A DNA stretch of 44,624 nucleotides from a virus, in the IMG/VR virus record IMGVR_UViG_3300007513_000073, positions 1-44,624 of that record; one strand, 5' to 3'. Below the pieces are notes generated by a model that had not been told where the DNA came from, made no database searches, and saw only the letters and a program-made list of their open reading frames with translations. Of the stretch, positions 4,329 to 44,624 are shown in pieces. The translations under genes were made by a program, and so were the position numbers. Positions within the stretch are counted from its first letter, which is position 1. Each line of letters starts with the position of its first letter.

Positions 4329-4360
4329 TCTAACCCCCAAACTATTTAACTATAACTTAT

Positions 4361-6007: not shown

Positions 6008-6318
6008 TATACCCCCAAAATACGCACTGGTTCGGGCTTATCGCCAATCACGCGCCAAACCTCATAGTGGTGTCCATTCTCATCTTTATATACTTGAATA
6101 CACAAACCAGCACGCCCAACAAAAGCCGTTCGTGATGCTGCCATCCGTGCAACTTCCAGTAGGTGCGAAAGTGTTTTCACATCCACATAAAACCGCACAT
6201 CCCTACCTGCCTCTGGTCCACCAAACACCGTTTCCCGCACAAGCTCATGCTGGTTGGCTCGTTGCAGCGGATTATGATTTACTTTTAGCTGATACTTTGG
6301 ATCTAGCGGATTCGACAT
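6007..6318 (-). CDS. Hypothetical protein upstream of terminase
   Basis: A 103-residue protein that I do not recognise. Its N-terminal half is polar and the C-terminal half (AFVGRAGLCIQVYKDE and then HHYEVWRVIGD) looks like a small beta-rich fold. AGGGAG precedes the ATG at 6318. It overlaps the methyltransferase gene upstream and the terminase start downstream (TAGTG). Its position right before the large terminase would suit a small terminase subunit, but there is no helix-turn-helix that I can see, so this is only a positional guess. Confidence 0.75.
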   Translation of the reverse strand: MSNPLDPKYQLKVNHNPLQRANQHELVRETVFGGPEAGRDVRFYVDVKTLSHLLEVARMAASRTAFVGRAGLCIQVYKDENGHHYEVWRVIGDKPEPVRILGV

Positions 6319-6881: not shown

Positions 6882-7426
6882 GACCGGGCCACTACTGTTA
6901 AACCATTATTGTTATCAAAATGTTCTTTGATAAACCACTCTTGGTGCAGTTCCATAAATTCGTACAACGCTGGCATTAATCCACGCCCCTTACTGTTACC
7001 CATATCAGTAAATCCATAAATTTGCGTATCATGCAATATAATATACTTTGAAACCTTGCTTCCATGCTTGGCAAGTTCGGCCTGTAGCTGCCCATAGCTA
7101 TGATGAGTATCAATGAATAGCAATTCAGTCTCTTCAATCTCCACCTTACGGGTATCACCAAGAATAAATGTATAATTTATCCCTGCATCTTTAGTAACCG
7201 AATTTAGTAACTTGTGATCTCCACCAGCAAATGCCGGATGCGTAATATCAATTGAAACCATCTTCTCTGGTCTGCCAGCAAGCAGCCCATAGGTACTAAC
7301 GATCGACCTCACTCCCATTTCTGTCACATGAGAGCACTCCTCCGCATATCTCTTTAATGTAGGAAGATGCTCGTTAATATCACTGCGCTGTTTGCATTTC
7401 AATTCATATACTTCATCAAGATTCAT
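6878..7426 (-). CDS. Class I SAM-dependent methyltransferase-like protein
   Basis: About 182 residues. The core has a Rossmann pattern: VTEMGVRSIVSTYGLL (motif I region), MVSIDITHP (motif II acidic residue), FILGDTRKVEI, LLFIDTHHSYGQLQAEL, then YIILHDTQIYG. The D-T-H-H and ILHD pieces recall the methyltransferase-24/cephalosporin-hydroxylase-like group that acts on small molecules or sugars rather than DNA. I chose ATG at 7426 because GAGGGGAAAA lies directly before it; an upstream in-frame start at 7465 lies deep inside the neighbouring FmdB-like gene. It overlaps the next gene by four bases. The substrate is unknown. Confidence 0.78.
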   Translation of the reverse strand: MNLDEVYELKCKQRSDINEHLPTLKRYAEECSHVTEMGVRSIVSTYGLLAGRPEKMVSIDITHPAFAGGDHKLLNSVTKDAGINYTFILGDTRKVEIEETELLFIDTHHSYGQLQAELAKHGSKVSKYIILHDTQIYGFTDMGNSKGRGLMPALYEFMELHQEWFIKEHFDNNNGLTVVARS

Positions 7427-7625
7427 TTTTCCCCTCACCGGAAGTTTTAAGTCCGTACCCATCACGGAACCAACCGCGACCCTTTAAGATGAAACCAGAC
7501 GCACTAATCATCTTACGGGCCTCTCCCGCCCCACAGTCTGGACACTGTGGGTCCGCATCTCCGAACTTCATTAGCTTTTCAAAAGCAGCATTACACGACG
7601 AACACCTATACTCGTAGATCGGCAT
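7416..7625 (-). CDS. FmdB-family zinc ribbon protein
   Basis: This small protein starts MPIYEYRCSSC and has CPDCG about 20 residues later, the exact pattern of the FmdB/CxxC-CxxC regulatory protein family. It should bind one zinc ion. The ATG at 7625 shares a base with the stop of the upstream methyltransferase (TAATG), which fixes the start; an in-frame start at 7667 would add 14 unrelated residues. The 69 residues end with a basic glycine-rich tail (GRGWFRDGYG). FmdB-like proteins are common in phages and their role is unclear. Function beyond zinc binding is not inferred. Confidence 0.85.
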   Translation of the reverse strand: MPIYEYRCSSCNAAFEKLMKFGDADPQCPDCGAGEARKMISASGFILKGRGWFRDGYGLKTSGEGKNES

Positions 7626-8185
7626 TAGTCTTCCAGAACACGGAAAATACCAATGGCGTCCTTCCAATGATCTCTGGGATCAATATAACTCTCGAGCAAC
7701 TTCACATTATCTACCCAAGACTCCAGAGCTGGGTACGCACCCGATAAGAACCTCCATCGGTCTGGACGACAATGCTCATTGCCAGAAGAAGGCGTACAAA
7801 TATAAATCAAGCCACCGGGCTGAACGACCCGCGCCATTTCCTTAAAGGTTTCCCAAAACGCCGCATCATGCTCGAAGCAAGACGTGGAAACAACCACATG
7901 AAACTCATTATCCTCAAACGGCATCGAACCATGCGTGGAAACAACGTCCACACCCGGCCCCTTCCGTATATCTAAACCCACATACTCGTAATAAGGTATC
8001 TCGGATAGATTCTTAAAAAGTGGCCTCAAAGTACCATTTACATCATAACTACCAACATCAAGTATCCGAACCTTTGGACGATCTTCTGTTGGAGTAGTTG
8101 GACCCCGCTGACCGGCCAACTCTGCTAAATACTTGCCATACTTTACCGCAAACTTATTTGCGTTCTGTTTCGCAGAACCATGCAC
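7625..8185 (-). CDS. SAM-dependent methyltransferase (Methyltransf_11-like)
   Basis: About 186 residues with a full class I methyltransferase core: VRILDVGSYDVNG (SAM-binding motif I), YEYVGLDIRKGPGVDVV (motif II), MPFEDNEFHVVVSTSCFEHD and ARVVQPGGLIYICTPSSG. That layout is typical of ubiE/Methyltransf_11 enzymes acting on small molecules or glycans. The frame opens with TTG at 8197 without a ribosome site; GTG at 8185 has GGAGAGCG before it and is preferred. The gene sits in a run with an FmdB protein and a second SAM enzyme, so these may form one biochemical step. The substrate is unknown. Confidence 0.83.
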   Translation of the reverse strand: MHGSAKQNANKFAVKYGKYLAELAGQRGPTTPTEDRPKVRILDVGSYDVNGTLRPLFKNLSEIPYYEYVGLDIRKGPGVDVVSTHGSMPFEDNEFHVVVSTSCFEHDAAFWETFKEMARVVQPGGLIYICTPSSGNEHCRPDRWRFLSGAYPALESWVDNVKLLESYIDPRDHWKDAIGIFRVLED

Positions 8186-8200
8186 ACCGCTCTCCAATCA

Positions 8201-8416
8201 TTAAAGCTGATTAACAACTAGAGCTTCTTTAGCTCTAACAAGATCACCATAGGTAATAGTAAACTCACCCCGGCAACATATAACAACATCTGCGTGGTCT
8301 TCATCACCCGGTTGCGCCATGTCTGCAAACGGACGCAGAGCAGTCACCATATAGTCTTCACTATTATTTGAAGCAATCGAAAATACCGTCTTCGGTGTTG
8401 TCTTTTTCCGTGCCAT
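8201..8416 (-). CDS. Small hypothetical protein
   Basis: A 71-residue protein with no recognised family. It has a basic N-terminus (ARKKTTPKT) and a compact mixed-charge body ending in a short helix (RAKEALVVNQL). The ATG at 8416 has a perfect AGGAGG seven bases upstream, so translation is well supported. It lies four bases before the methyltransferase frame in the same transcript. Confidence 0.75.
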   Translation of the reverse strand: MARKKTTPKTVFSIASNNSEDYMVTALRPFADMAQPGDEDHADVVICCRGEFTITYGDLVRAKEALVVNQL

Positions 8417-8461
8417 TACATCCTCCTATACAGGTGCATAGTAACAGATAATGGCAACTAA

Positions 8462-8665
8462 TCAAACTTCACAATTGTTATCTACATCCGCCACCCAATC
8501 GGCCATTCGTTCAACGACCGCCGTGGTGTTCCTGTAAGTTTTAATCTTAAATTCTCCGTCTACAAACTCTACTTGTATCCAGTTCTCATTGTCGATAACC
8601 ACATATACCTTCTCCACTTGGTCGATATTCTTTACATCAGTTTGAACCTTCATATTATTACCCAT
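8462..8665 (-). CDS. Small hypothetical protein
   Basis: A 67-residue acidic protein without a recognised family. It alternates beta-like segments (VYVVIDNENWIQVEFVDGEF) with a C-terminal helix and a terminal Cys. GAGGAG precedes the ATG at 8665, which lies one base after the stop of the HNH gene, so it belongs to the same operon. Confidence 0.72.
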   Translation of the reverse strand: MGNNMKVQTDVKNIDQVEKVYVVIDNENWIQVEFVDGEFKIKTYRNTTAVVERMADWVADVDNNCEV

Positions 8666-8666
8666 A

Positions 8667-9938
8667 CTATTCTCCTCGTAAGTCCTGTAGTTGTTTTTTT
8701 AGTTGCTCTCTATTTTCTCCGTAATGGAGTTCTCGGTGGTGATTGGCACAAACGCAAACCATATTCTCCATCGTGTCTGGACCACCTTCCGCCATCATAA
8801 TCAAATGGTGAACCTCTACATACGGTAGACCATCTGGCTTAATAAAAAGCTCTACCGCACAACCATCGACCTCACACGCGTAACCAGCTCGCTTCTTAAC
8901 CAAATCGACTAACTTATGGTTTCTCTCGTAACCACGCTCAACAACACGAGACTTTCTACGCGGCTCTAGGTTCTCCTCCAGTTTTGCTAATGCTTCAAGG
9001 TTGGCTAGAGTTTCGCGCCCCTCCTCTGTCAGAGCTATCCGCGTATCACCCTCTGGCTCTTGCGCAAAATTACGCATAATAAACTGATCAACGAGAAAGG
9101 CCCACCTCTCCAATGCATCTGGCGCATCAGCATCGAAGTCCACAGTTTCACCTGAAACAACCTGCGCACCATCAGCCCCATCGTACTCCACTCCAAGAGC
9201 AAGGGTGCCGGGTCCATGAAACTCTGGCGTAGCATAAACAGACACCCCAGAATACTCTGGGTTAATAAGTTCAATTGTCAATATCTCTGGGTTGAGTGTT
9301 GGCACCCATCCCTGAACACCACCACTGGACAAAATCGCATCCGTTAATGTTGTAACTCCACTGACTTGCTTACTAGCAAGCATAACCGGATCGCTATTAA
9401 CAACATCCATCTGAATTTGGTGTTTCGGAGCGGGAAAAACACCCTCTGGCTCATCATCGTCTTTATGCCACGACACGCCGGTAACATTACCCTCGTCATC
9501 CGTCATAACATTCACTTTGCCGTCTGGATGATTATTTCCAAAGTGCTCTGTCATAAAATCTATCAGTTCGTCTGGCTCATAACCACGATCGGATATATCC
9601 AAATATAAAGTCTTATCCTCATCATCTATTGCAATATTTTCCATTGGAATATCCAGATCACGCAGATCTGGCTTTTCCTCTACCACGTCTGGCAAATGAC
9701 CCCTTCTACGGGCACGACGTTTAGCAAGCAGCCTATTCCGTCGCTGCATTGCCTTATCTGCCCTAGAGTTCGGATGCTCCGCACCCATACCCGCCTCCTG
9801 CACATTAAAACCCTTACTGCCCCTCCTTTGAGCACGGTTACCGCCTCCACGCTCATTTGCTTGACCAGCAGCACCCCTCTTCATTAAACCGCCCCCCTCG
9901 CTATCCCTCTTCCTACCTACAGCCCTTCGTTTTCCCAT
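8667..9938 (-). CDS. HNH endonuclease domain protein with long N-terminal region
   Basis: Residues about 345-415 form a clear HNH nuclease: a first Cys pair (CEVDGC), VEVHHLIMMAEGG holding the catalytic His pair, then MENMVCVCANHHRELHYG with the second Cys pair and the last metal-binding His. The first 85 residues are very basic and glycine-rich (RRNRLLAKRRARRRG), suggesting DNA or RNA contact, followed by about 250 residues of unrecognised, mostly acidic sequence. HNH proteins near terminase genes are often needed for packaging cleavage in phages, which is a plausible role here. The ATG at 9938 overlaps the upstream stop by one base. A homing endonuclease is the main alternative, but the operon position argues for a resident gene. 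Confidence 0.85.
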   Translation of the reverse strand: MGKRRAVGRKRDSEGGGLMKRGAAGQANERGGGNRAQRRGSKGFNVQEAGMGAEHPNSRADKAMQRRNRLLAKRRARRRGHLPDVVEEKPDLRDLDIPMENIAIDDEDKTLYLDISDRGYEPDELIDFMTEHFGNNHPDGKVNVMTDDEGNVTGVSWHKDDDEPEGVFPAPKHQIQMDVVNSDPVMLASKQVSGVTTLTDAILSSGGVQGWVPTLNPEILTIELINPEYSGVSVYATPEFHGPGTLALGVEYDGADGAQVVSGETVDFDADAPDALERWAFLVDQFIMRNFAQEPEGDTRIALTEEGRETLANLEALAKLEENLEPRRKSRVVERGYERNHKLVDLVKKRAGYACEVDGCAVELFIKPDGLPYVEVHHLIMMAEGGPDTMENMVCVCANHHRELHYGENREQLKKQLQDLRGE

Positions 9939-10171
9939 CAGTACACCTCATTCTCGTCTGGAAACACACGTTCCGGCTCATACGCACCCGGTCGTAACTT
10001 CACTGGCTCCAAACCCTTTGATACCCTGTGAACCTCATTCCATAACTTAAAACAACCACGACAGACCGGCTCACGCTCTCCGTTCACCCTTAACGACGGA
10101 ACCAGCTCTGGATTGAAGGAAATGGACCGCTCACACGACACACAAAACCCATGCATTATCATCCAACTCAT
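9938..10171 (-). CDS. Small zinc-ribbon-like protein
   Basis: A 77-residue protein with CVSC near residue 10 and CRGC near 39, a spacing that fits a single zinc ribbon. The rest is unrecognised, with basic and Pro-rich segments. The ATG at 10171 follows the stop of the upstream gene directly and its own stop overlaps the next start, so it is embedded in the operon. It may be a nucleic-acid-binding accessory for its HNH neighbour; this is inference. Confidence 0.75.
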   Translation of the reverse strand: MSWMIMHGFCVSCERSISFNPELVPSLRVNGEREPVCRGCFKLWNEVHRVSKGLEPVKLRPGAYEPERVFPDENEVY

Positions 10172-10756
10172 TTAACGACCCCACTGCATAGCCATAGCTT
10201 TGGCAATACCCACATACGTCTCTGACCGTATCCTCCACCTATCTTCCGATGGACCCAACACATTCTGACCACTCAATGTCTGATTGTCCCATACACCACA
10301 TTTTGGGATCTTTAGAACATTCGTTGGCTGCAACGGCGGCAAACGCTTTAACCACAAACCCGTTTTCTTGGAATGAGGATGACCGAACTCATACGGATGG
10401 ATATACTGGTCTGGTGGCCTAATCGCTGTTGAAATACGTCCTACAGGATTCTCAATACATATTCGGCCAATAGGCGCGTTCATCAAATGACGAACAAACT
10501 TTAATGCCTCTTCCGTCTTATGGCTCCGACCAAAACGACGCTTATTCCAATGTAATCCACTACCAGACAAATAAGTGCAAGGCGGATGAGCTATCATCAA
10601 ATCCCAACCCTTATTTAGTACAAATCGTACATCACACTTGAGATGAGGACCGCCAACCACGCTTGGAAGCACATCGCAAGACCAAGCATCATGGCCACGC
10701 CGCAGAAATTGATCTCGCACAATCCCGCTGGATTCACATGCAACCAATACCCTCAC
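10172..10756 (-). CDS. DNA cytosine methyltransferase-like protein
   Basis: The 194 residues begin VRVLVACESSGIVRDQF, then GHDAWSCDVLP, then DLMIAHPPCTYLSGSG. This matches the start of C5-cytosine methyltransferases, where a SAM-binding segment is followed by a PPC motif; here the catalytic-loop equivalent is HPPCTYL. The segments IGRICIENPVGRIS and YEFGHPHSKKTGLWLKRLP resemble the ENP motif and later core. It is shorter than classic C5 enzymes and belongs to the compact phage type, so activity and target are uncertain. I chose GTG at 10756 because GGAG lies five bases before it; the longer frame from 10822 adds an unlikely N-terminus. Confidence 0.78.
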   Translation of the reverse strand: MRVLVACESSGIVRDQFLRRGHDAWSCDVLPSVVGGPHLKCDVRFVLNKGWDLMIAHPPCTYLSGSGLHWNKRRFGRSHKTEEALKFVRHLMNAPIGRICIENPVGRISTAIRPPDQYIHPYEFGHPHSKKTGLWLKRLPPLQPTNVLKIPKCGVWDNQTLSGQNVLGPSEDRWRIRSETYVGIAKAMAMQWGR

Positions 10757-10940
10757 AACGACTCCAAAAAAGAAATTTGCGGGACGGCTCGCTTCAAACA
10801 GCTTACCTGACGACACCCGCAATTACCGGCGTACTCTCTCGGCCCCCAAATGATTACAAGAACCGTAACTGGTGGCAGGGGTTAGGGACTCGTACACAAA
10901 GTTTTGGAATAGCCACCCCACACATTCGATAATAAAACAA
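10757..10940. other. Intergenic stretch between small unknown gene and cytosine methyltransferase-like gene
   Basis: The 184 bases carry the ribosome-binding GGAG of the downstream GTG start at their left end and a short inverted repeat GGTGGC/GCCACC toward the right. I see no tRNA cloverleaf and no T-run terminator. Confidence 0.35.
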
Positions 10941-11219
10941 TTACTTTGCTGCATACTTATTCTTACGTTTGTTGACGACCCTATCACACTCTCGCTTCGC
11001 CGCTTTGAGGTTATAGGTGCCGCCGCCTCCTACCCATCTATCATTCGTTGGAATTTCAGAATGGTGATCCTTGTCCAACCATAAATGATAGGTGGCCGCG
11101 CAAAGGCCATTACCGATCGTAATTGTCGCTCCGATTACTTCATTGTCGGTTTCATACTTCTTTTTATAAACCATGTTTCCATAGCCATCATCAGTGCCGC
11201 GACTCCATCGCCCAGCCAT
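10941..11219 (-). CDS. Hypothetical protein
   Basis: A 92-residue protein starting MAGRWSRG with GGAGG five bases upstream of ATG 11219; the frame continues open to 11285 but that extension lacks a ribosome site. It has a Trp and Gly-rich body (YHLWLDKDHHSEIP, RWVGGGGTYNLKAAKRECD) and a basic tail. The central part resembles small secreted or lectin-like beta proteins only vaguely, so no function is assigned. It lies downstream of the endolysin. Confidence 0.68.
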   Translation of the reverse strand: MAGRWSRGTDDGYGNMVYKKKYETDNEVIGATITIGNGLCAATYHLWLDKDHHSEIPTNDRWVGGGGTYNLKAAKRECDRVVNKRKNKYAAK

Positions 11220-11329
11220 AACTTCCTCCAAGTCTGGTTTGAACCACATGAGGGACCACCACCCTGCGTAGGAAAATTCCCACAAGTGGACACCTGTGCA
11301 GGGTTGGTGGCGGTCCTATACCCTATAAA

Positions 11330-12151
11330 TCAGGAAACCGGACCTTTTGCAAGCCATGACTTTATGCTTTGGGGATCTATCGCTAATCTTACCATATGGA
11401 CCCCAACTTTCGACTCAATCCTACCGGTCCAAGTCTGGGTCACACGGTCCACCCAGTTCGGGCCGGGGTTCAACACGTCCCTCAATGGACCAATCTGACC
11501 CCAACCAGCCCCATTAATACTTCCCACAGCCTCTAACGTCAGAATCTTATCCGTCGCCGGATCATAATCCAAAACTATCAAACTATGACCACCACTAGAG
11601 GTAAAATACTGCAACAAGTATGCACCCTCACCGGGAGCCGTAGTACCCACACCCCACTGGAGTATTACCCTCGGACCCCAGTTCGGCACCACCGGAACAG
11701 AACCACTGTCACTTGTGGAAACCATCCACAACTTCCACTGCTCACTTGTAAACGATACACCCTCAAAAGCATACGCCAACAACCAAGAAGTAAACTGCAC
11801 GCAATTCGTCCACTCATCACCAATATTACGCAAACTCATTCCCGGTGGATTACTCGGACACTGGGCATCGCTTAAACGATACTCCTGCGGCAACATCTGT
11901 GGAAACAAGTCAGCCACCACTTGGAAGTCTATCGGCAAACCTAAATCCACACCACCACTACGCAATGCATCCCAAGTCTTCGAACCCACAACACCATCCG
12001 CCACTAAACCACTAGCAGACTGAAAAGACTTCACATTCGCTTCCGTTCCCGAACCAAATACACCATCCACCGTCGTCCGATAACCACTCTCGGTCAACAA
12101 CGTCTGGCACTCCTTCACCTCTATACCACTGTCACCCTTACGCAATACCAT
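11330..12151 (-). CDS. Endolysin with N-terminal peptidoglycan-binding domain and Cys/His peptidase-like domain
   Basis: This is the likely cell-wall hydrolase for lysis. Residues 1-65 (VLRKGDSGIEVKECQTLL, then YRTTVDGVFGSGTEANVKSFQ, then LVADGVVGSKTWDAL) are a textbook PG_binding_1 repeat. The remaining 200 residues contain DEWTNCVQFTSWLLA (candidate catalytic Cys), SGGHSLIVLDYD (candidate catalytic His) and acidic and Asn residues behind it. This is the order expected of CHAP or NlpC/P60-like amidases or peptidases, though I cannot assign the exact family. The ATG at 12151 overlaps the upstream membrane-protein stop (TAATG) and has AGGAG before it. No signal peptide is present, so release needs a holin; several small membrane proteins lie next to it. 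Confidence 0.85.
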   Translation of the reverse strand: MVLRKGDSGIEVKECQTLLTESGYRTTVDGVFGSGTEANVKSFQSASGLVADGVVGSKTWDALRSGGVDLGLPIDFQVVADLFPQMLPQEYRLSDAQCPSNPPGMSLRNIGDEWTNCVQFTSWLLAYAFEGVSFTSEQWKLWMVSTSDSGSVPVVPNWGPRVILQWGVGTTAPGEGAYLLQYFTSSGGHSLIVLDYDPATDKILTLEAVGSINGAGWGQIGPLRDVLNPGPNWVDRVTQTWTGRIESKVGVHMVRLAIDPQSIKSWLAKGPVS

Positions 12152-12588
12152 TACCAACTCCTCGACACTAGCAAACCACCCACCGAACCAATCACACATA
12201 AAAGTATATCCCACCAATCAAATGTACCACGGAACATAGATAGACTTTGGAGGACTTCAATACACCCTACAAGGCATCCCGGCAGTAAAACCGACCCAAG
12301 GTATATCCAACCCCCCTCGGATCGCCACAAACGGCAAAAGAATCCCGTACAGGCATATACCCATACTCCTAGAGGCAAACTATAAACGAACCACAAAGGA
12401 AATAGGCTCCTATACGGATTCGCCAACTCCCTAACCCAACTCAATACACCGTCAGGACGGTAGCACCCCACCGCGCCCATTACTTCAAATATGAGCAAAT
12501 GGTCTGGACGCCACAATAAATAGATAATCGACCCCAAACAAATTGGGATAACACAATTCCAAAGGAAAAATTTTCTATTTACAGGCAA
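12151..12588 (-). CDS. Multi-pass membrane protein (VanZ-like), lysis region
   Basis: A 145-residue protein with about four hydrophobic segments (FFLWNCVIPICLGSIIYLLW, LFPLWFVYSLPLGVWVYACT, WIYLGSVLLPGCLVG and the C-terminal DILLCVIGSVGGLLV). The pairing of IEVLQSLSMFRGTFDWWD with a final hydrophobic helix is like the VanZ family. It directly precedes the endolysin and shares a base with it, so it could be the holin; that is positional inference. The start appears to be TTG at 12588, without a visible ribosome site, overlapping the end of a 26-codon membrane peptide gene in another frame. Translation may therefore depend on coupling or on a frameshift from that peptide. Confidence 0.75.
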   Translation of the reverse strand: MPVNRKFFLWNCVIPICLGSIIYLLWRPDHLLIFEVMGAVGCYRPDGVLSWVRELANPYRSLFPLWFVYSLPLGVWVYACTGFFCRLWRSEGGWIYLGSVLLPGCLVGCIEVLQSLSMFRGTFDWWDILLCVIGSVGGLLVSRSW

Positions 12589-12659
12589 AACGTAGAAAGG
12601 AGGACAAAACCCCCCACGGCGTAGATGGTGACCAACACTTTAGAATCTAAATTAAACAT
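12579..12659 (-). CDS. 26-residue single-span membrane peptide
   Basis: A very short frame with a perfect AGGAGG placed correctly before the ATG at 12659 and a stop at 12579. After six polar residues it is one continuous hydrophobic segment (VLVTIYAVGGFVLLSTF), so it should span the membrane once. It overlaps the start of the VanZ-like protein by ten bases in the minus-one frame. It also contains G GGG GGT in the zero frame at codons 15-17, a possible minus-one slippery site. Its position next to endolysin suggests a lysis regulator or a leader for the next gene; this is inferred. Confidence 0.6.
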   Translation of the reverse strand: MFNLDSKVLVTIYAVGGFVLLSTFCL

Positions 12660-12667
12660 GGAACCTC

Positions 12668-12967
12668 CTAAATAAATTTAGCTATCAGCCCGGTTACGGA
12701 AAGCACCAGACCTATATAGGCCAAACGCTTCGCACGGGTCGCGGTACTGTATGCGTCTCCCAAGTTATCCCGTTTGATTTTGTAATCAAAATGTTGGAGC
12801 GGGCTTAATTTGGGTATGGCTTCAAAGAAGTCGGGACAATCACGCTGTTCGTACTCATCTTGTCGCGCCAAACGGTGCTGATACCACAAACAGACCCCAG
12901 AATACTTATTTTCATGGTGTTCATCGGGGTATTTATTATATAGGCCACATCGACCACATCTAGCCAT
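12668..12967 (-). CDS. Small Cys-rich protein with C-terminal membrane helix
   Basis: A 99-residue protein. The N-terminus has CGRCG and later Cys/His residues (about residues 4-45) that could bind zinc. The C-terminus ends in a hydrophobic segment (LAYIGLVLSVTGLIAKFI) that would anchor it to the membrane with the N-terminus in the cytoplasm. GGGG lies before the ATG at 12967, two bases after the previous stop. It belongs to the lysis-region operon; a holin or antiholin role is possible but unproven. Confidence 0.7.
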   Translation of the reverse strand: MARCGRCGLYNKYPDEHHENKYSGVCLWYQHRLARQDEYEQRDCPDFFEAIPKLSPLQHFDYKIKRDNLGDAYSTATRAKRLAYIGLVLSVTGLIAKFI

Positions 12968-12968
12968 T

Positions 12969-13196
12969 CTATTGCCCCATACACGGTATCAAGCTCTCAC
13001 CTGCGTCGGATACTATCACAACCGTATTGGGGAGTATACGGTCTACTACCCAACCATCTGCCAGCTCTAACCCTTCACTAAAGGCTCTACAATGCGGAAT
13101 GTCACCAAATAAGAGGTAGGACTCCAAAGGGGAGTGGCTATGAGGGCTACAGTTTATGAGAATAGTCATCATGGTTAGGATTAGGAACATTTGCAT
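12969..13196 (-). CDS. Small exported or membrane-anchored hypothetical protein
   Basis: A 75-residue protein with a hydrophobic N-terminus (MFLILTMMTILINCS) that looks like a signal peptide or a poor lipobox ending in Cys. The rest (GWVVDRILPNTVVIVSDAGE) resembles short periplasmic beta-hairpin segments seen in secretion-type proteins. The ribosome site is weak. It overlaps the preceding membrane frame by 50 bases. A spanin-type lysis role would fit the neighbourhood, but the lipobox is not canonical. Confidence 0.5.
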   Translation of the reverse strand: MQMFLILTMMTILINCSPHSHSPLESYLLFGDIPHCRAFSEGLELADGWVVDRILPNTVVIVSDAGESLIPCMGQ

Positions 13197-13359
13197 TACT
13201 CGGAGGGTAGGGAGAGGCGGCTACATATATCAGCCAACAGCAACATCTTACAAGTAATGGGATGACGCCAAATGTAAACACCCACCCTACTAAAACGTAA
13301 AAAGATACAACTAATGCTAACTCGAAAGATCCTATGTAGTCTGGGTTAGATGTGTACAA
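13147..13359 (-). CDS. Possible small membrane protein
   Basis: A 70-residue frame with one or two hydrophobic segments (LALVVSFYVLVGWVFTFGVI and PLLVRCCCWLIYVAA) and a polar Pro/Asn-rich tail. The only upstream start is a TTG at 13359 with no ribosome site, so it may be the end of a longer or decayed gene. It is the last gene-like frame before the long gene-poor region to its right. Confidence 0.4.
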   Translation of the reverse strand: MYTSNPDYIGSFELALVVSFYVLVGWVFTFGVIPLLVRCCCWLIYVAASPYPPSNANVPNPNHDDYSHKL

Positions 13360-14560
13360 ATTTTACCGGGGAAAAGATTAAAAATACCTTGGTCCCCCCA
13401 CGGGGGACTATGGGGGAAGAATAATTTTATATAAATAGATCTTAATACAAATCATATATCTCTTAATATATCTTATTATATATCTATTATTCTCACAATG
13501 GGCATATCGACCTTTAAACCCCCATTATAAGAGGGGTAAATTATACAATTATCTCTAAAACAGGTTTAATGGATAAACTTATAAGGGGTATAGACTCACT
13601 AGGTCCAAAAATTTTAGAAAAAAAAATTCAAGACTCACTAGATGATAAAAAGTATGAAAAATCGGTCGGCAGGAGGTGTCCCTCAAATATCATATTCTTG
13701 GAATCATATTCTGTAGGGGGGAGAGGTGAGGTTCAACCTATGATATGAGGCATTACCTCATGTGGATTCTAGGGTCATCATATCTATTGGCAATGGCAAC
13801 TATCATACTCTCCTGGCCCATATCATAGGTTGTAAGGTCATTATCATAGGATAAACCCCTATAAAATAGGCCAAAATCATAGGGCATAGGCGGTCCAAAG
13901 TGGGCATATACCCTCATTAATAGGCATATCACCAACATCATATTCATAGGCACAAAGGGATATTCCTACTACAACCATTCATATCCTTTGAGCGCTCATG
14001 GTGTTTCTAGGGAACGGCCAATATCATAGGACTCCCCTCCACTATGGTGTGGGTCTACCCCATACAGGTTTCACCAATTCATATCCAATATCCAATAAAC
14101 ATAGGTCATAACTTCACTTTCATAGGCTAACTCAACCTTCCTATTCATAGGTACAACATACTCAATCTGTCATTCCTGGCCTACAACCTACATTTATTCC
14201 ATACACAGGATTTCAAACCATATCCTACCATCGGCAAAAGTTGGCTAGGTAATTACCATATCATCAAAAGGAAAATAATTTTCCTATTATCGGCTCCCAT
14301 ATCCATACTCTCAATTCTATAAAAGGGGGCTGGCATATGCGGCATTGTACCTACAAAATCGGCTATTTGGCTCAAAATTTTAATATCTATCAAACGGCTA
14401 TTAATACCCTTCCATCCATGTCAATACTCGGTTCAATCATATTCATACCATCAACCTCATATCTCATATTCTCACCATACAATCCCCCACCTACCAACAC
14501 CAATAAACATACCCTTTACAGGCTCACATTACCCCCTGGAGGGACTTCACCGGCAATCTG
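13360..14560. other. Gene-poor AT-rich stretch grading into the isolated-G desert
   Basis: I see no convincing gene here. At 13.39-13.50 kb it is AT-rich with runs of TATAT. An 11-base direct repeat AGACTCACTAG occurs at about 13592 and 13631. From about 13.8 kb copies of ATCATAGG begin (13822, 13843, 13876, 14023) and isolated G becomes rarer to the right: between 14101 and 14560 only six isolated G remain on the plus strand (14169, 14240, 14339, 14347, 14420, 14560). A reverse copy CCTATGAT lies at 13738 and an AGCGCT palindrome at 13991. A 66-codon minus frame at 13753-13953 is open but poorly supported. Confidence 0.6.
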
Positions 14561-14640
14561 CGGGTCTGGGCAAGGGTAAACCCCTTGGACGGCTTCTGGG
14601 GGCATTCTAGGGGCTACAATCGGCATGGTTGGTTTGGTGG

Positions 14641-14870
14641 GTCAATATACAGGATAGGATCGGTCCATATCCATACTCGGATCGGATACCGGATCGGATC
14701 GGATCATAGGGCTAGGGTCCACGGAATAGGGGATACAGGCTATCCCTAGGATCATAGGGACCGGATACAGGGAAACCCGGCACCATAGGATAGGGACCGG
14801 GTTCATAGGGCTAGGGATCGGATCATAGGGGATCGGATCGGATCATAGGGATCCCCAAACCAAAATACCC
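14641..14870 (+). repeat. GGATCGGATC-rich imperfect tandem repeats, left arm
   Basis: Successive imperfect units of CGGATC, GGATCATAGGG and TAGGGACCGG fill this stretch, giving many GATC tetramers. It sits on the downstream side of the single gene in the desert, and a similar array lies on the upstream side at 16.2-16.4 kb. It could be a protein-binding array or slippage product; no direct evidence separates these. Confidence 0.7.
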
Positions 14871-15067
14871 CTATCCGGTTAGGGATAGGGGTACTGGGGA
14901 TCGGCTAGGCTATCGGGTTAATCGGTTACACAACTCCACACGGATAATAGGATCAGGAAGGTATAAAGGCTTGGCAGGGTAATCACAAGGTTAATCATAG
15001 GGTACTCCAATAGGGGCTAGGGGTGGCCCCTACCCGGTATTGGGTAGGGGCTAGGGGTTAGGGGTTA

Positions 15068-15712
15068 TTACTTGGCTAGGGATTCACGGGAAACCAATTC
15101 CCATACCAACAAACCATTGGGATCAATTGGGGTATCCTTATCGGTGGGATTGGTATTCTCTACGGTCCAAACCATATCCTTCCCGGTTCCAAATAATCCC
15201 TTGGTGGAAATGGAATACAGGGCTTTATGGCCACTATTGGCTCTCTTACCGGGTTCTTTGGTAGGGTTACCAAAATACTCTTTATATTTCACACAGGATA
15301 CGGGAAACCCACGGGCCAACATATCGGCATGGGAAACCATAATACAGGTTTCACCGGTATCACCTACCAATTCGGTCAATAGGGATACAACCCGGTCTAG
15401 GAATTTTGGCTTCGGGGTATTTTTCCGGATTTTGGCTACTTTGGCCTCAATTACCTTCATGGCAAAATCCCATACATTGGTGGGATCATCGGAAAACTTA
15501 CCTATTCCCAACTCATTACAGGGACCGGCATACTTCATATCACCATAACGGGTAACCTTGGAATACAGGGGATCGGCTACTAGGGCCGGTCCAAAATTAT
15601 CTCGGGTCCAATCGGTGGATTCACATATGGCGGATACAATATCCTCAATTCGGAAACCGGTTAGGGCTAGGATTAGGGTAGGGGTTTCAACTTTTTTATT
15701 GGCTTTGGCCAT
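15068..15712 (-). CDS. Unrecognised protein encoded inside the isolated-G desert
   Basis: A 214-residue protein of no family that I recognise. The ATG at 15712 has AAGGAAG seven bases upstream; the frame is open to 15835 but that extension has no better start. The sequence looks like a real globular protein (LILALTGFRIEDIVSAICES, FLDRVVSLLTELVGDTGE, CIMVSHADMLARGF, NGLLVWELVSRES). Codon choice is extreme: every Ala is GCC, every Thr ACC, and every Ser TCC except single AGT-type exceptions. There is no Gln at all, and both His codons follow a codon ending in C. These choices are just what is needed to avoid isolated C on the coding strand. An intact frame shows selection for function despite the constraint. 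Confidence 0.8.
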   Translation of the reverse strand: MAKANKKVETPTLILALTGFRIEDIVSAICESTDWTRDNFGPALVADPLYSKVTRYGDMKYAGPCNELGIGKFSDDPTNVWDFAMKVIEAKVAKIRKNTPKPKFLDRVVSLLTELVGDTGETCIMVSHADMLARGFPVSCVKYKEYFGNPTKEPGKRANSGHKALYSISTKGLFGTGKDMVWTVENTNPTDKDTPIDPNGLLVWELVSRESLAK

Positions 15713-16446
15713 TTCATCACTTCCTTTCAATTTGGGATCATTCCCAACCGGTCGGGACTCATTCCCTATCGGCACAACCATAATAACCGGATATGGAAAT
15801 AATTCATAAACATAACTAACCGGAAAATCATACACCGGGAATAAACATAGGGAGAACCGGCAATATCATCGGCTCAAAATAATTCTTTTTTTTATATATT
15901 CCAAGGATCACCTCAAAATATCCAATTTTTAATCGGCCTATTCCATAGGATGTAACTACAATATCCTTTGGCACCACGGCATTTCAATCCAGGCTATTCG
16001 GTTATATGGTAGGAAGGAAGGGGATTTATCGGGATAGGGTCCACCAGGTATCCTATTAATTCGGGTATTGGATGGGGGCAAAATCGGATCGGCTCAAAAT
16101 CGGGCCATTCATACCTCTATATATAGGGACAACAAAATCATACATACCCATTCTGGCCATATCATAGGGTCTAACTACCATACCTCTGGAATGGATGGAT
16201 ATTCCATATCCTAGGATCTCGGATCATAGGGGATCGGATCAAAATCATAGGATCTCGGATCTTTCATATTTTGGATTTCAAAATCATAGGATCTCGGATC
16301 TCAAAATATCAGGATCTCAAAATCATAGGATCGGATCAAAATCATAGGATCGGATCAAAATCATAGGATCTCGGATTTTCAATATCTCGGATCTCGGGAT
16401 CATAGGATCGGCCAAAATCGGATCGGATTTCGGTCGGAAAAATTTT
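15713..16446. other. Non-coding right arm of the isolated-G desert
   Basis: Upstream of the single gene, this stretch holds a T-run near 15886-15893 and then GGATC/GATCTCGG-type repeats with eight ATCATAGG copies (16161-16406). No gene is supported; a short minus frame at 16342-16596 owes its C-terminal RSYD repeats to the DNA repeats. A promoter for the gene should lie here but I cannot point to a convincing one. Confidence 0.6.
16201..16440 (+). repeat. ATCATAGGATCTCGGATC-type imperfect tandem repeats, right arm
   Basis: The words ATCATAGGATC, TCGGATC and CGGATCAAA recur in varied order with seven ATCATAGG copies in about 185 bases. The array ends at the right border of the isolated-G desert. 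The resemblance to the left array (14641-14870) lies in the shared GGATC and ATCATAGG words rather than a long common unit. Confidence 0.75.
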
Positions 16447-16506
16447 GTCCCGGTCATGGAAAATATTGTCCCAACCTCCAAAATTCCTAGGATTCACATT
16501 AAGGGT

Positions 16507-16563
16507 ACTAGTGGCACGGTCAAGGGAAAATCCACCCTTAAAGGATATTCTAGGGCCACTAGT
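16507..16563. repeat. Nested inverted repeat at the right border of the desert
   Basis: Outer arms ACTAGTGGC (16507-16515) and GCCACTAGT (16555-16563) are perfect complements. Inside them AAGGG and CCCTT form a second stem. It lies just outside the last zero-isolated-G stretch and could be a cruciform or protein-binding site. Confidence 0.7.
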
Positions 16564-16641
16564 GACGAGGCAACCGGCCCAAAACCGAGGCTGCATAGGA
16601 ATGAAGTTGTCCTCTTTTTCTGGGAGAAAATAAATAAGTTT

Positions 16642-16851
16642 AGCGCTTAATAAAAACGTTTACGTTTTTATTATTCATATTCCTAAATCCAGGCCCCAGC
16701 TCTCTTTTGGAAAACTTTTGAAGTTCTCTGTCGGACAAAATCCGAAGCGCTTACAAATTCACCGAAGGCGAGCGCTGAAAATAAATGACGATGAAAGAAA
16801 AAATATGCCGTCACGGTGAAGCTGTGCCCCGTGGCAGAGCGCTCGAGCGCT
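16642..16851. repeat. Cluster of five AGCGCT palindromes
   Basis: AGCGCT occurs at 16642, 16746, 16771, 16838 and 16846, the last two forming a larger palindrome around CTCGAG. One more copy lies on the other side of the desert at 13991 and another at 22825. Five copies of a hexamer in 210 bases is far above chance. The sequence here is rich in isolated G, the opposite of the neighbouring block. Confidence 0.75.
16649..16672. repeat. Perfect AT-rich palindrome
   Basis: Arms AATAAAAACGT (16649-16659) and ACGTTTTTATT (16662-16672) are perfect complements around a two-base centre. It could be a transcription stop in either direction or a binding site for a symmetric protein. It directly follows the first AGCGCT. 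Confidence 0.7.
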
Positions 16852-16920
16852 AACCAAGAAAACGAATCCAGAAAAAGAACCTCGATTTAAGTTGGCTAAC
16901 CAAATTTGAGCGGCCAGCTT

Positions 16921-17015
16921 TTTGGCCAAGTTTTGAGCTGGCGTTTGAAGTTTGCGTTTGTCGAGTGCGTGTGAGTGTCGCCGCGTGCGCCGCGCGTCGT
17001 GTTTGGCCAAGTTTT
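16921..17015 (+). repeat. Direct repeat TTTGGCCAAGTTTT, two copies
   Basis: The 14-base word occurs at 16921-16934 and 17002-17015, each followed by GAG or AAG. Each copy contains the palindrome TTGGCCAA. The stretch between is G/T and CpG rich. No gene is supported; an 83-codon minus frame over this stretch looks like low-complexity translation. Confidence 0.6.
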
Positions 17016-17353
17016 AAGTGGAGTTTGTATTAAATTAAATTAATAATACTCAATACTATATATAATATATAATACATTATAACTACATTATAGTAAGTTT
17101 TGAAAGTCTCTCACTCACCCCCATTAAAGTTGACACTCAACTCTGCTCATACCCTTACTTAAAGTGTATAGGTTTTTTAATTTTAAGTAATGGCACCGAC
17201 AAATCATTTTAATTTTCACCCTACCCCTAACCACCAACAACCAGTCAAAACCTCACCACGGGGCCGTTAGGCGGCCGATACGGTACAAGTACGGGCACCC
17301 CACTCCTCCTACCCCCTCCTACCCCCTACCCTACCCTACTGGGTACGCCTCCG

Positions 17354-17426
17354 ACCTATATACAGAATTTGTTATGGTTTTTAGCTTGGAGCGTATTGGA
17401 TATTGAAACTAGGGGGGTATAAAAGA
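17354..17426 (+). repeat. Long intergenic repeat element, copy 1
   Basis: This copy shares with 35764-35840 the ordered blocks ACCTATATA, ATTTGTTATGG, TTTTT, and TATTGAA followed by CTAGGGGGGT and an AAAA run. Spacing differs by only a few bases. Its partner sits just downstream of a minus-strand operon end, which suggests a role in transcript ending or processing. Confidence 0.65.
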
Positions 17427-17666
17427 CAGGGTGTTGAGGGGAAGGCGACCATAATCACATTATCCGTGTGTACAGCGCGGTTAAAGTGAACAACATGGGC
17501 ATGGTTGTCTATCCCCCCAACACTGTGGCCATACCCCCGTATAAAGATCCTATCGGCACACCCAACCTTCTATTTAACGACAAACATCACTGTTAAAGAA
17601 AGCTGGTGGTCCGAATATATAGGTATAGGTATACATATACTCATTCAGGATTTTTTTTGAAAATCA

Positions 17667-17702
17667 AACCCCCGAAGTTCGAAAAACGAAACTAGGGGGG
17701 TT
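17667..17702 (-). terminator. Stem-loop terminator at the end of the early operon
   Basis: AACCCCC (17667-17673) pairs with GGGGGTT (17696-17702), and an inner GTTCG/CGAAC-like stem extends it. On the minus strand the hairpin is followed by TTTGATTTT. It lies about 28 bases past the stop at 17730 of a long minus-strand gene run, so a rho-independent terminator is the natural reading. It carries the CTAGGGGGG word found at three other places. Confidence 0.65.
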
Positions 17703-21337: not shown

Positions 21338-21386
21338 CCGCGTTAATTGCGGATAATAACCCGTAACCTTATTCGGTTACGAGTTA
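21338..21386. terminator. Two intergenic hairpins
   Basis: CCGC/GCGG (21338-21352) and a longer stem TAACCCGTAACC/GGTTACGAGTTA with one mismatch (21357-21386) lie between two minus-strand genes. They resemble the hairpin at 19387-19412 in position. A weak terminator or processing site is likely. Confidence 0.5.
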
Positions 21387-21396
21387 CTAACCATAA

Positions 21397-21660
21397 TTAA
21401 ATCGATCCTATGGCATCCATTGCAAGTTCCTGACTTATAGGCGGCAAGCTCCAGAGGAGCGCTGCAAATTTGAATTGGCTTTCAACCTGCGCCGTCCGTA
21501 GGTTGGAATAAAATTCCTCTTGGGCCTCTTGGTCGTGGTTAAACCAATATTCATCGGATGGATCTCGGTCATCATACCAAGCATCCAAGTCTACGAAATT
21601 CACAAATCCTTCCAGAACCTTTGGCTCTGGTGGGAGTTCCATTAAAAAACTACTACGCAT
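21397..21660 (-). CDS. Small acidic hypothetical protein
   Basis: An 87-residue acidic protein (DLDAWYDDRDPSDEYWFNHDQE) of no recognised family. GGAGGTGAG precedes the ATG at 21660. Its high acidic and aromatic content resembles small phage inhibitors of host proteins, but that is only a general likeness. Confidence 0.7.
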   Translation of the reverse strand: MRSSFLMELPPEPKVLEGFVNFVDLDAWYDDRDPSDEYWFNHDQEAQEEFYSNLRTAQVESQFKFAALLWSLPPISQELAMDAIGSI

Positions 21661-21799
21661 CACTCACCTCCGATTTATTCACCCAACGGCGAATCATCCC
21701 CTCATAGGGATGGTAATATTCAATACGGATTCGCTCCGTACCAACTTCCAAAATATGCCCTCGGCGGTTGCCGAACATTACTGCATCACCACGCTTCAT
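21653..21799 (-). CDS. 48-residue basic protein
   Basis: ATG 21799 has GGGAG six bases upstream and overlaps the upstream stop, so the short form (starting MKRGDAVMFGNRRGH) is preferred over the 89-codon open frame. The body (RIRIEYYHPYEGMIRRWVN) looks like a small SH3-like or KOW-like beta barrel. Function unknown. Confidence 0.65.
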   Translation of the reverse strand: MKRGDAVMFGNRRGHILEVGTERIRIEYYHPYEGMIRRWVNKSEVSDA

Positions 21800-22431
21800 C
21801 GCTGGCTCCCAATGATCCGCACTGCGGTTTCCATATCTGTTGGGGTGGTTCCATGTGGAACCAACACCATTCGGGAGTCCCGATGGCGGTCGGTATTCCA
21901 AGTCACCGGTTCGAGGAGCCAAAAGGCACCATGAATCATCTCGGTTTGGTAGTTGTCATCATCAACAATCACTGAAAATTCTGTGGTTTTCAGTTCATCT
22001 TGGATCTCTGGGAGACATATATGGGCCAATTCACATACGGCCCAATTAATCGTTTCCTCATAGGAATTGAAGAGGTAATAATGGCCGTAGGCATTATCAT
22101 ACTCATCCAAATTACTATAATACTCATAAACGTCTGCCATCAGTTCCGCTACGAACCCTTGGATTGCCAGAGCTTCGGTTGGCGGGCAGTTGCCGTTCAT
22201 CACGGCTACGAGGGTACGGGACACCAAGTCCCATTCGGCCTTCTCAAGATCATCTCCCTCCACCTTGTGGAGCAGGATGGAGGCGAGAACTCCTGGCCCC
22301 CACAGTTCTCGGACGGTATGGCCGTGGCTGCTTTCGGCTAAATATTCTTCGAGGATAACCCCCGAAATTTCAACACCTTTCTTCGTGGCTCGGCCACCAA
22401 AAGAGTACATACGGTTCTCAAAATGTTTCAT
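21796..22431 (-). CDS. Hypothetical protein, first gene after a promoter
   Basis: A 211-residue protein starting MKHFENRMYSFGG at ATG 22431, with AGGAA upstream. A longer frame opens at 22485, but that ATG would lie only a dozen bases after the promoter -10 box at 22497-22502, so the shorter form is preferred. The protein is rich in Glu and Tyr with no recognised motif. It heads a run of small minus-strand genes. Confidence 0.72.
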   Translation of the reverse strand: MKHFENRMYSFGGRATKKGVEISGVILEEYLAESSHGHTVRELWGPGVLASILLHKVEGDDLEKAEWDLVSRTLVAVMNGNCPPTEALAIQGFVAELMADVYEYYSNLDEYDNAYGHYYLFNSYEETINWAVCELAHICLPEIQDELKTTEFSVIVDDDNYQTEMIHGAFWLLEPVTWNTDRHRDSRMVLVPHGTTPTDMETAVRIIGSQR

Positions 22432-22496
22432 TTTTTCATTCCTATTCTCATGTGGGTTCAACGTGGGTTTCAACTTATCTTCCAACTTAACACCCT

Positions 22497-22525
22497 ATTT
22501 TACCATATAAAAACCAGTGGGTCAA
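22497..22525 (-). promoter_or_regulatory. Sigma70-type promoter
   Basis: On the minus strand TTGACC (-35) is followed after 17 bases by TAAAAT (-10), preceded by TGG as an extended -10. It points into the gene at 21796-22431. The TGGTANAAT word is shared with promoters at 25361 and 32457. Confidence 0.75.
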
Positions 22526-22645
22526 CCCCATAATTTCATAATACACTAGTTTTAACCCGGTTTTTCACCGACAGGCACACGTCTACCCTCCCTTTTACCC
22601 GATATGGTGGGGTTCAAGGCGAAGGAAAATTATGGTAGTTTATTA
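22526..22645. other. Intergenic stretch upstream of promoter
   Basis: The stretch holds AACCCGGTTTTTCACC near 22555-22570, resembling words at 25.41 and 34.56 kb that also lie in intergenic gaps of the minus-strand genes. No gene is seen. Confidence 0.4.
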
Positions 22646-22882
22646 CTAATGAATAAGAAAAACGCCGAAGATACAATTATCATATTGTAAATCCAGGTTA
22701 ATGTTCTCATTTATTATACAGGAGCCACGGTCGGATTCTTCCGATTCAATTTCGGTAGGCCAGCTCTGGCTTTCACTATTTTCGATTTGAATTGGAATTT
22801 GTGATCGCTCGATCTGGGATCTTGAGCGCTCACTACGGTTGCGCTGGTCGATAATAAATGGCGATGGCATTTCCCTATTCAT
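22646..22882 (-). CDS. Small Ser/Glu/Arg-rich hypothetical protein
   Basis: A 78-residue frame with a low-complexity middle (RSERSRSQIERSQIPIQIENSE) and a short hydrophobic end. AAGGA lies nine bases before the ATG at 22882, and the upstream stop is three bases away. It may be real but disordered; no family. Confidence 0.5.
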   Translation of the reverse strand: MNREMPSPFIIDQRNRSERSRSQIERSQIPIQIENSESQSWPTEIESEESDRGSCIINENINLDLQYDNCIFGVFLIH

Positions 22883-31240: not shown

Positions 31241-31249
31241 AACTACCCC

Positions 31250-43003: not shown

Positions 43004-43745
43004 TGATCTTCCCCACTCGTCCATTGATTTCAAGGTCATCCAACATCGCCGCAAAGATTACAGGAATATCCGTTGATCCAAGCCTATCGGAGTACTTTTC
43101 AAAAATCTCTAGCCATTCTCCGTAGTGGTCTACCGTTATCCTCCCCCTCACATTTCCAATAACAAACCGTGCAAACCGCTTCCTAACCTTGTCTTTTGCT
43201 GCCGCCTCTGGGCTTATGCCGGGATCTTGTTCATCCTCCATAAATGGATCTTCATTATCCTCAACACTTGAGTACCTATCAAGATCTGCATCTGATGATT
43301 CCGCCAGCTCTATCAAATCTTCCAGATCTTCTTTCCCAAATCCCATTAATTCTGGGTCTAGCTGATTATCTTCTGCCATATTTGTCAACGACGACACATA
43401 TGTCGGCAATTTCTGCCAATCCCAATCACCATCAGACTTATTGTCTCTCAAGGCGATAATTCTGGCTGCTTTTTCTGATCCCTTAAACTGTATTGTCGGT
43501 ATTTCTGCTGGAAACTGGTCACCCGCATCTTTCATTGTTCGTAAAGCACGGAGCCTCTGATTACCTCCAATTACAACTAGGCGACCACCCGAATTTTCCC
43601 ATACCAACAATGGCTTAAATAATCCAAATTGTTTAATTGAACTAATTAACTTATTAATTCCACTTTCATCAATAGAGCGAGGATTATCTTCAAAACCCGA
43701 TAATAATGAAATATTCCTGTACTCTATTTCAAGCTCTTGCTCCAC
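42993..43745 (-). CDS. ParB-like nuclease-fold protein, copy 1
   Basis: A 250-residue paralogue of the next gene with the same order of motifs: GFEDNPRSID, QFGLFKPLLVW, VVIGGNQRLRALR, IPTIQFKGSEKAARIIALRDNKSDGDWDWQKLP, and a C-terminal VIGNVRGRITVDHYGEWLEIFEKYSDRL. An acidic linker in the middle is longer than in copy 2. GTG 43745 has AGAGG six bases upstream and is preferred over GTG 43760. It overlaps the dpdA stop, so it is co-expressed with the transglycosylase. Confidence 0.87.
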   Translation of the reverse strand: MEQELEIEYRNISLLSGFEDNPRSIDESGINKLISSIKQFGLFKPLLVWENSGGRLVVIGGNQRLRALRTMKDAGDQFPAEIPTIQFKGSEKAARIIALRDNKSDGDWDWQKLPTYVSSLTNMAEDNQLDPELMGFGKEDLEDLIELAESSDADLDRYSSVEDNEDPFMEDEQDPGISPEAAAKDKVRKRFARFVIGNVRGRITVDHYGEWLEIFEKYSDRLGSTDIPVIFAAMLDDLEINGRVGKINAD

Positions 43746-44624
43746 CAGACACCTCTGCACACTGTTTGTTGATTAACGTCATTGCATACTCACAGTTGTC
43801 TCTCACAACCTCTGCCAAATATACAGTTATCTGATTTTCCGCCTTATCTACACGGACCACATTCTCATGTCGTTGGGCAGCAAGCCACGACCAAATTGAG
43901 ATTTGCAACATATCCGCTCGCTGGTCGGCACTATCTCTAATAAATGCTGTCGGACGCACGCCATATGGTCTAATTGTATACCCATACTTCATAATTCTGG
44001 GATCTCTCGCTCTAACGAGCCTCCATCTGGAATATTTCAAATCCCAGAACATTAAAGCTCCCCACATATATCCAGCCGCCCATGATGCTGAATCAATAGA
44101 TGCCCACGGATACGCAGAAACAATATCCCAAGTCGTACATCCAAACCCATGTAGTCGGATTCCCAACTCTTTAGCAATTGTATGGCACTCATCTAGCCAA
44201 TCTAGTGCCTCACAACTCCTGCCAGCCCTTATAGCGGGAACCATCTTCATTGTTTGAGGAACCAATCCGCCAAGGCACATATAATCATAACCATGCTTAT
44301 GATACCTGACTAACTCTTCCGGCTTCGTGCCAAAATGAATAACTGGAAGTGGGCGTAACCCCATTGACTCCATCTTCAATTGGTTACGAAGGGTCAGTGC
44401 TTGATTGCCAATTTCATCAATATTAGCGTATATATCAATAACATTTGAATGTTTGCGTATAAATCTAGCATACTGTTCAACAGAGATTTCTACGTTCTTA
44501 TATGAAGCTGTAAAGCCCCCTGAATCGACAAAGACACGGGGGTTATATGGCATCTCTGCCAACATTCTACTTAAATCCGTTTTCATAAAATGAAAATAAC
44601 TAAAGAGAAAACCTATTTCTTTCT
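43729..44624 (-). CDS. dpdA: DpdA-like DNA guanine transglycosylase, 5' end outside window
   Basis: The frame is open to the right edge, and the piece upstream of the ATG at 44586 (FLFSYFHF) looks like part of the protein, so I treat the start as outside. It belongs to the tRNA-guanine transglycosylase superfamily in its DNA-acting DpdA branch. RVFVDSGGFTAS matches the TGT DSGGF site, YANIDEIGN the DE segment, YDYMCLGGLV the GGL base-binding loop, and GFGCTTWDIVSAYPWASIDSASW the segment with the probable nucleophilic Asp. DpdA exchanges guanine in DNA for a 7-deazaguanine precursor (preQ0). Next to it lie two ParB-like genes and queD, the expected partners. Confidence 0.85.
   Translation of the reverse strand, partial: KEIGFLFSYFHFMKTDLSRMLAEMPYNPRVFVDSGGFTASYKNVEISVEQYARFIRKHSNVIDIYANIDEIGNQALTLRNQLKMESMGLRPLPVIHFGTKPEELVRYHKHGYDYMCLGGLVPQTMKMVPAIRAGRSCEALDWLDECHTIAKELGIRLHGFGCTTWDIVSAYPWASIDSASWAAGYMWGALMFWDLKYSRWRLVRARDPRIMKYGYTIRPYGVRPTAFIRDSADQRADMLQISIWSWLAAQRHENVVRVDKAENQITVYLAEVVRDNCEYAMTLINKQCAEVSGGARA

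Follow-up and report, generated by a model that had tools for sequence, protein, structure and literature searches.

What could clear almost every isolated G from one strand of nearly 1.9 kb of phage DNA, gene and non-coding sequence alike? The question is raised by a fragment of a tailed-phage genome (IMG/VR record IMGVR_UViG_3300007513_000073), whose 44,624 nucleotides are here called the window. We use lone G for a G without a G neighbour, and lone C likewise; lone G missing from the plus strand is lone C missing from the minus strand, the RNA-like strand of this region.

Extent of the rule and the gene inside it

The core of the affected region (zone 1) and its gene are:

14561..16446, minus (RNA-like) strand: zone 1 core, lone C missing except at the complements of 15854 and 15952 (recount)
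15068..15712, minus strand: ORFan gene of 214 aa with ATG start and SD-like AGGAAGTG, an ORF without any lone C

A base-by-base recount of the whole window agrees exactly with the original prediction: there is no plus-strand lone G in 14561-15853 (1293 nt) or in 15953-16446 (494 nt), and between these stretches lone G occurs only at 15854 and 15952. The predicted strand asymmetry was likewise recovered, plus-strand lone C having a normal frequency in zone 1. The next-longest lone-G-free stretches of the window measure 139, 119, 98 and 97 nt, all inside or adjoining zone 1; the longest stretches without lone C, A and T are 79, 114 and 88 nt, respectively. For 14561-16446, mononucleotide shuffling gives an expectation of 264 lone G and dinucleotide-preserving shuffling one of 77 (minimum 64, n = 300), so that the comparison with shuffled sequence also bears out the claim; dinucleotide shuffles of the whole window (n = 30) yield lone-G-free stretches of at most 84 nt. 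The z score of the lone fraction, calculated in 600-bp windows, falls to -13.6 in zone 1. The feature is real and extreme, and the literature searched contains no description of it.

G content in zone 1 is normal or raised, and runs of two or more G are about 2-3 times denser than in the remaining window (99/kb against 37/kb just upstream). Since every G of zone 1 sits in a run and G content is not low, the pattern is one of pairing, not of loss, of G.

The 214-aa gene obeys the rule through its codons. Alanine is encoded by GCC (15/15), threonine by ACC (18/18), serine by TCC (11/12, the other being AGT), cysteine by TGT (4/4) and tyrosine by TAT (6/6). All 44 NCN codons are NCC; third-position C (C3) stands ahead of a lone-C codon in 18 of 18 cases and elsewhere in 0 of 141. 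These counts show that the rule acts at the nucleotide level, across codon boundaries, over a maintained protein, whose composition is ordinary apart from the absence of Gln and high Lys. The codon bias of an imported gene was rejected as an explanation, as it predicts high C3 in all contexts and C3 is 0/141 outside C-pairing positions. The gene is surrounded by about 2 kb of non-coding DNA rich in repeats, with GATCC and CCTATGATCC units. Coding and non-coding DNA comply equally, as had been stated for gene and repeats, and translation is therefore not the reader.

The zone derives from one metagenomic record and contains degenerate repeats, both of which would suit an origin in sequencing or assembly error or in simple repeat expansion. 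Such an artefact, named at the outset as what would overturn the observation, is very unlikely indeed, because an intact gene with its start codon, SD-like site and ordinary amino-acid content carries the rule by synonymous codon choice. Repeats do not explain the gene, and the fade and the second zone described below are graded.

No homologue of the 214-aa protein was found in phages, plasmids, IMG/VR, GTDB genomes, PDB, Pfam, PHROGs or PADLOC, nor in 284 genomes from the phylum of a Myxococcales relative. Its AlphaFold model, made with no alignment, has a pLDDT of 48 and is too poor for use. An Rfam search for a known structured RNA gave no match up to E = 1.

Promoter-like and hairpin limits of two zones

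The following features mark the limits of zone 1:

16496..16523, minus strand: promoter-like TTGACC-N16-TAATGT, predicted start about 16489 (sigma70-like, a weak match that fails a stricter scan)
16507..16563, no strand assigned: inverted repeat ACTAGTGGC ... GCCACTAGT, overlapping this promoter-like site, possible operator (fold z -2.6)
14864..14895, minus strand: 13-bp hairpin with U-rich tail, 3' of the 214-aa gene, terminator-like (fold z -5.6)
13400..14560, minus strand: left fade, lone fraction 31/92 = 0.34 against a background of 0.78 (counted)
12151..12967, minus strand: ORFs downstream of zone 1, in which lone C is still partly depleted (synonymous shuffles)

On the right, the original prediction placed a sharp stop at 16447. 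While 16446 is indeed the last perfect base, the depletion runs on to about 16561: the 115 nt of 16447-16561 hold three lone G, and only past 16561 are they frequent again. The right edge of zone 1 thus coincides with the promoter-like site at 16523-16496, which has a poor -10 element. Non-coding DNA upstream of it (16570-17700) is ordinary, with 114 lone C and 37 runs of two or more C per kb, against 3 and 88 per kb in the non-coding part just downstream. Among G runs, 5 of 153 are lone inside the zone-1 unit (one of the five is a run cut by the segment edge) compared to 129 of 171 just upstream of the promoter-like site (Fisher p 1e-45). The DNA directly upstream of zone 1 (16570-17050) is rich in palindromes and CG and contains many lone G (AGCGCTCGAGCGCT, hairpin AATAAAAACG/CGTTTTTATT). 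A further element, AACTAGGGGGGT, has four plus-strand copies in the window (17407, 17690, 23933, 35824), at or near the 3' ends of minus-strand genes.

On the left, the rule has no exception between 15853 and 14561 and so continues 300 bp beyond the hairpin at 14.87 kb before it weakens. The gradual fade that had been described is confirmed and, at the codon level, reaches 12-13 kb: the lone fraction is 0.64 in 12000-13380 (background 0.78), and the ORF 12151-12588 has 24 lone C compared to 38 in synonymous shuffles (z -5.1).

The promoter-like and hairpin boundaries were not part of the original prediction and were added by the present analysis, as was a second zone:

21365..22490, minus strand only: zone 2, lone C fraction 83/153 = 0.54, against 0.72-0.74 on either side (unbiased profile)
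22497..22525, minus strand: promoter-like TTGACC-N17-TAAAAT bordering zone 2 on the right, -10 extended (sequence scan)
22550-22544, minus strand: ACTAGTG by the zone-2 promoter-like site (sequence)
21354..21389, minus strand: 15-bp hairpin at the left end of zone 2 (fold z -6.5)
21397..22431, minus strand: three overlapping ORFs, 21397-21663, 21653-21922 and 21796-22431 (codon counts)

Zone 2 is the one further region of the same sign and strand as zone 1 in an unbiased profile of the window, and it is weaker. It differs from its two neighbours with Fisher p values of 5e-4 and 2e-3; likelihood segmentation delimits it as 21498-22784 (LLR 17, compared to at most 9 in 20 shuffles), with the right edge of the segment about 290 bp past the predicted transcription start. 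The promoter-like site has the joint best score in 12-24 kb and is the only one there with an extended -10. In both zones TTGACC is followed by CACT and accompanied by an upstream ACTAGTG; TTGACC with CACT within 4 nt occurs exactly twice in the window, both strands counted, and these are the two zone edges.

The zone-2 ORFs have C3 ahead of a CAN or CGN codon in 25 of 33 cases (odds ratio 11.8). In the gene 21796-22485, NCN codons are NCC in 22 of 36 cases (background about 0.17) and C precedes a C codon in 21 of 37 (about 0.24). Within-gene synonymous codon shuffling gives this gene a z of -4.7, the extreme value for C among the genes of at least 150 aa in the window and its relatives outside zone 1. 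C-to-U editing of RNA, with selection on recoding only, was considered as a candidate and rejected: it fits the third positions of zone 2, but non-coding DNA complies too, and C is also raised before the synonymous CTA and CTG codons (odds ratio 2.05, z 3.6), which counts against it.

As both zones are limited by promoter-like and hairpin sequences, the constraint seems to track the RNA-like strand of two transcription units, a geometry that sequence features support moderately well. A rule that ignores translation and follows putative transcription units would be placed at the level of RNA or of a displaced strand. Because nearly every gene is encoded on the minus strand, the RNA-like strand and a fixed DNA strand are inseparable here; the only clear plus-strand gene (about 35213-35662) is without the effect. 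Upstream of that gene lies a T/G-rich non-coding segment with a tandem GTTTTGTT repeat (34900-35135).

Selection, mutation or an exposed strand

The composition of the non-coding DNA bears on the force behind the rule. Upstream of zone 1 the C content is 0.203; within the zone, the non-coding part on the right has 0.206 and the one on the left 0.337. T content in the right part is 0.314 against 0.298 upstream. C runs fall from about 150/kb upstream to about 90/kb in the right part. Copying of a neighbouring base was rejected as sole process, since it predicts an unchanged number of C runs. With C content unchanged, C-to-T deamination alone is disfavoured as well. The core is best accounted for by selection against lone C in which some sites became paired and others lost their C. 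Zone 2 fits this imperfectly: CC is gained there, but synonymous lone C3, at 0.20 compared with 0.22-0.26, shows no clear loss. The suggestion that an agent reading isolated G or C imposes the selection is thus the best fit among the causes first offered, with the reservation that zone 2 raises.

Two leftward transcription units, each from a TTGACC promoter with a nearby ACTAGTG, would then be under selection against lone C on the RNA-like strand. Unit 1, under near-absolute selection, would start at 16.49 kb and reach 14.87 kb or further, read-through carrying it to about 13.4 kb; unit 2 would span 22.49-21.37 kb, under partial selection. Lone C (HCH) would be sensed by a host or infection-stage activity that inactivates the molecule carrying it, either the transcript or the non-template strand that transcription displaces; the phage would respond by turning lone C into CC or another base. 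We infer that the promoters are active, that the force is selection rather than mutation, that the target is RNA rather than displaced DNA, and that the agent exists; as a whole, this model is put forward tentatively. It is possible, if more doubtful, that the agent belongs to antiviral defence or RNA surveillance and has so far escaped recognition, sensing a C that has no C beside it in particular phage transcripts or on the strand displaced by their synthesis. Such an activity would have to be strong enough to clear nearly all lone C from a unit of 1.9 kb, gene included.

A context-dependent deaminase, also proposed at the outset, would act much as AID does, with a cytidine deaminase attacking the displaced non-template strand downstream of a promoter and sparing CC. 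Zone 1 begins, judged by sequence, at a promoter-like site, fades downstream and affects the RNA-like strand only, and its left fade is A-rich and G-poor on the plus strand. The residual lone C are biased in context: in 13750-16586, ACA accounts for 10 of the 22 remaining (12% elsewhere) and NCG for 2 of 22 (elsewhere about 37%). This bias resembles the context preference of an enzyme and speaks for the lone-C-sensing activity above as well. However, neutral non-coding DNA under C-to-T pressure would be expected to be poor in C, whereas the core keeps its C, shows the small difference in T given above, and has CC runs enriched 2-3 times. Zone 2 shows no clear change in synonymous lone C3, where loss would be easiest, and Pfam scans of most window proteins found no deaminase. 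We regard this explanation as rather unlikely.

Selection might instead favour CC pairs as such, if a CC-reading RNA- or DNA-binding protein coated the transcript. The gain of CC in zone 2 without clear loss of lone C3 agrees with this, but the core has lost all lone C too, and the spacing of CC in zone 1 has no periodicity other than the codon period of 3 in the gene; the idea is improbable. Quite unlikely, too, is a replication origin primed by two transcripts, in which the displaced minus strand would be single-stranded and a nuclease or primase would screen it for lone C. The repeat-rich non-coding DNA and the fade from a fixed start would suit an origin. Against it, no origin, initiator or iteron family was identified in the window, and known primases require one trinucleotide, not nine; a strand test does not discriminate, with nearly all genes on one strand.

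For selection against lone C, we know of no agent that recognises a C without C neighbour in all nine contexts and, to our knowledge, no known process purges lone C from coding and non-coding DNA alike. The literature searched, which leaves many subscription papers outside its coverage, contains no described equivalent and, within the same incomplete coverage, no known enzyme with HCH specificity.

DNA modification, relatives and known systems

One gene of the window suggests a different reader:

43729..44586, minus strand: DpdA-like DNA-guanine transglycosylase (7-deazaguanine modification); not supported as cause of the rule

A DpdA modification system is indicated by conserved aspartates in DpdA and by preQ0 synthesis genes. 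The window encodes DpdA and QueD, and QueC, FolE and a QueE-like radical SAM protein are encoded past the window's end in a contig of a relative (G009); we therefore tested whether lone G is linked to 7-deazaguanine. DpdA would place 7-deazaguanine at lone G of the template strand and hinder RNA polymerase on incoming virion DNA, so that the first-transcribed units would lose lone G from that strand. The gene content fits, as does the absence of the effect in the relatives G002 and G003 (terminase 72% identical), which have no zone and in which DpdA and QueD were not found. On the other hand, the DpdA phages G004, Bipper, Kpn2-P2 and Nicole72 lack lone-C pairing in their genes, and a survey of 80 DpdA loci (1.33 Mb) revealed no comparable zone. 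The link is not supported, and we give this explanation little probability.

The close relative (sample 3300023112) is represented by two contigs: G001 is about 91% identical over most of window positions 1-11342, and G009 matches 34359-35841 and 39289-44624. Given the shared sample and complementary matches, they probably belong to one virus. These contigs miss 11.3-34.4 kb, and the zones are therefore not comparable there. In the sampled relatives, the z score of the lone fraction for G and C is no lower than about -4.6 (600-bp windows). G009 extends 21 kb past the homologous right end of the window (44624; L122/L123) and encodes there QueC, FolE, the radical SAM protein, a DnaB/primase-like protein, a weakly RuvC-like protein and a PD-(D/E)XK nuclease.

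Among the 80 loci from other DpdA phages the lowest z is -10.8, in a collagen-like gene (L093) whose Gly-rich protein explains the value. The stronger zones were inspected (L093, L106, L045 and L088), leaving out L067 and L077 (z about -5), and each has another origin: a collagen-like gene of GPT repeats, an Ala/Lys-rich gene, GC-rich sequence, and a GGA-rich purine block that holds 43 lone G and so breaks the rule, respectively. This last block (583 bp, positions 5388-5970 of an unrelated DpdA-phage locus) is apparently non-coding, contains 76 GGA motifs and is followed by terminator-like sequence; it could encode an RNA that titrates CsrA/RsmA.

A genome-wide version of the rule was rejected as unspecific. 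Pairing of C from one codon to the next does occur in window genes (odds ratio 2.53, z 11.3) and, weakly, in the relatives G001 and L008, but other phages pair C across codons as well, with odds ratios of 2.13 in an unrelated Vibrio phage, where T pairs too, and 2.07 in L035.

Two further observations concern gene content. Besides DpdA the phage encodes a Mom-family adenine modification protein and an MT-A70 methyltransferase (26046-26705 and 6303-6881), and thus several DNA modification enzymes. At 29714-32416, a MoxR-type AAA ATPase adjoins a ViaA/VWA-like protein, an arrangement kept in G003 and G004.

A near-absolute sequence rule on the kilobase scale is a sign of very strong selection or of a very active enzyme. 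If an agent does read lone C, it would represent a new kind of nucleic-acid recognition, probably belonging to a conflict between phage and host, and a transcript that follows the rule would offer a ready resistant substrate with which to look for it. Limits set by promoter-like and hairpin sequences open the idea to direct testing.

Several known systems share part of the pattern. Diversity-generating retroelements also give a local, strand-specific and base-specific pattern but, unlike zone 1, mutate A in a short pair of template and variable repeats. No such adenine-specific pair was seen in the window, and there is no reverse transcriptase among the proteins scanned (most window proteins, small ORFs only partly). 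The 7-deazaguanine systems of Queuovirinae and mycobacteriophages act on G, and their pathway genes occur in this phage too, but the other DpdA phages tested are without a zone and mostly without codon-level pairing. In somatic hypermutation by AID and in mutagenesis by deaminases coupled to T7 polymerase, changes start near a promoter, as here, affect C of the non-template strand and fade over 1-3 kb; C falls and T rises in these systems, whereas the zone keeps its C in paired form and spares any C with a C neighbour. The gradients of APOBEC3 hypermutation in retroviral DNA end at priming sites. They are, like zone 1, strand-specific with one sharp edge each, yet APOBEC3G favours CC, the sole context spared here, and its traces record a recent event rather than accommodation at the codon level. 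In the avoidance of RNase-toxin or restriction sites in phages, selection likewise strips a recognised word. The known targets there are specific words several bases long, usually avoided genome-wide, whereas here nine HCH words are avoided together, on one strand of two units.
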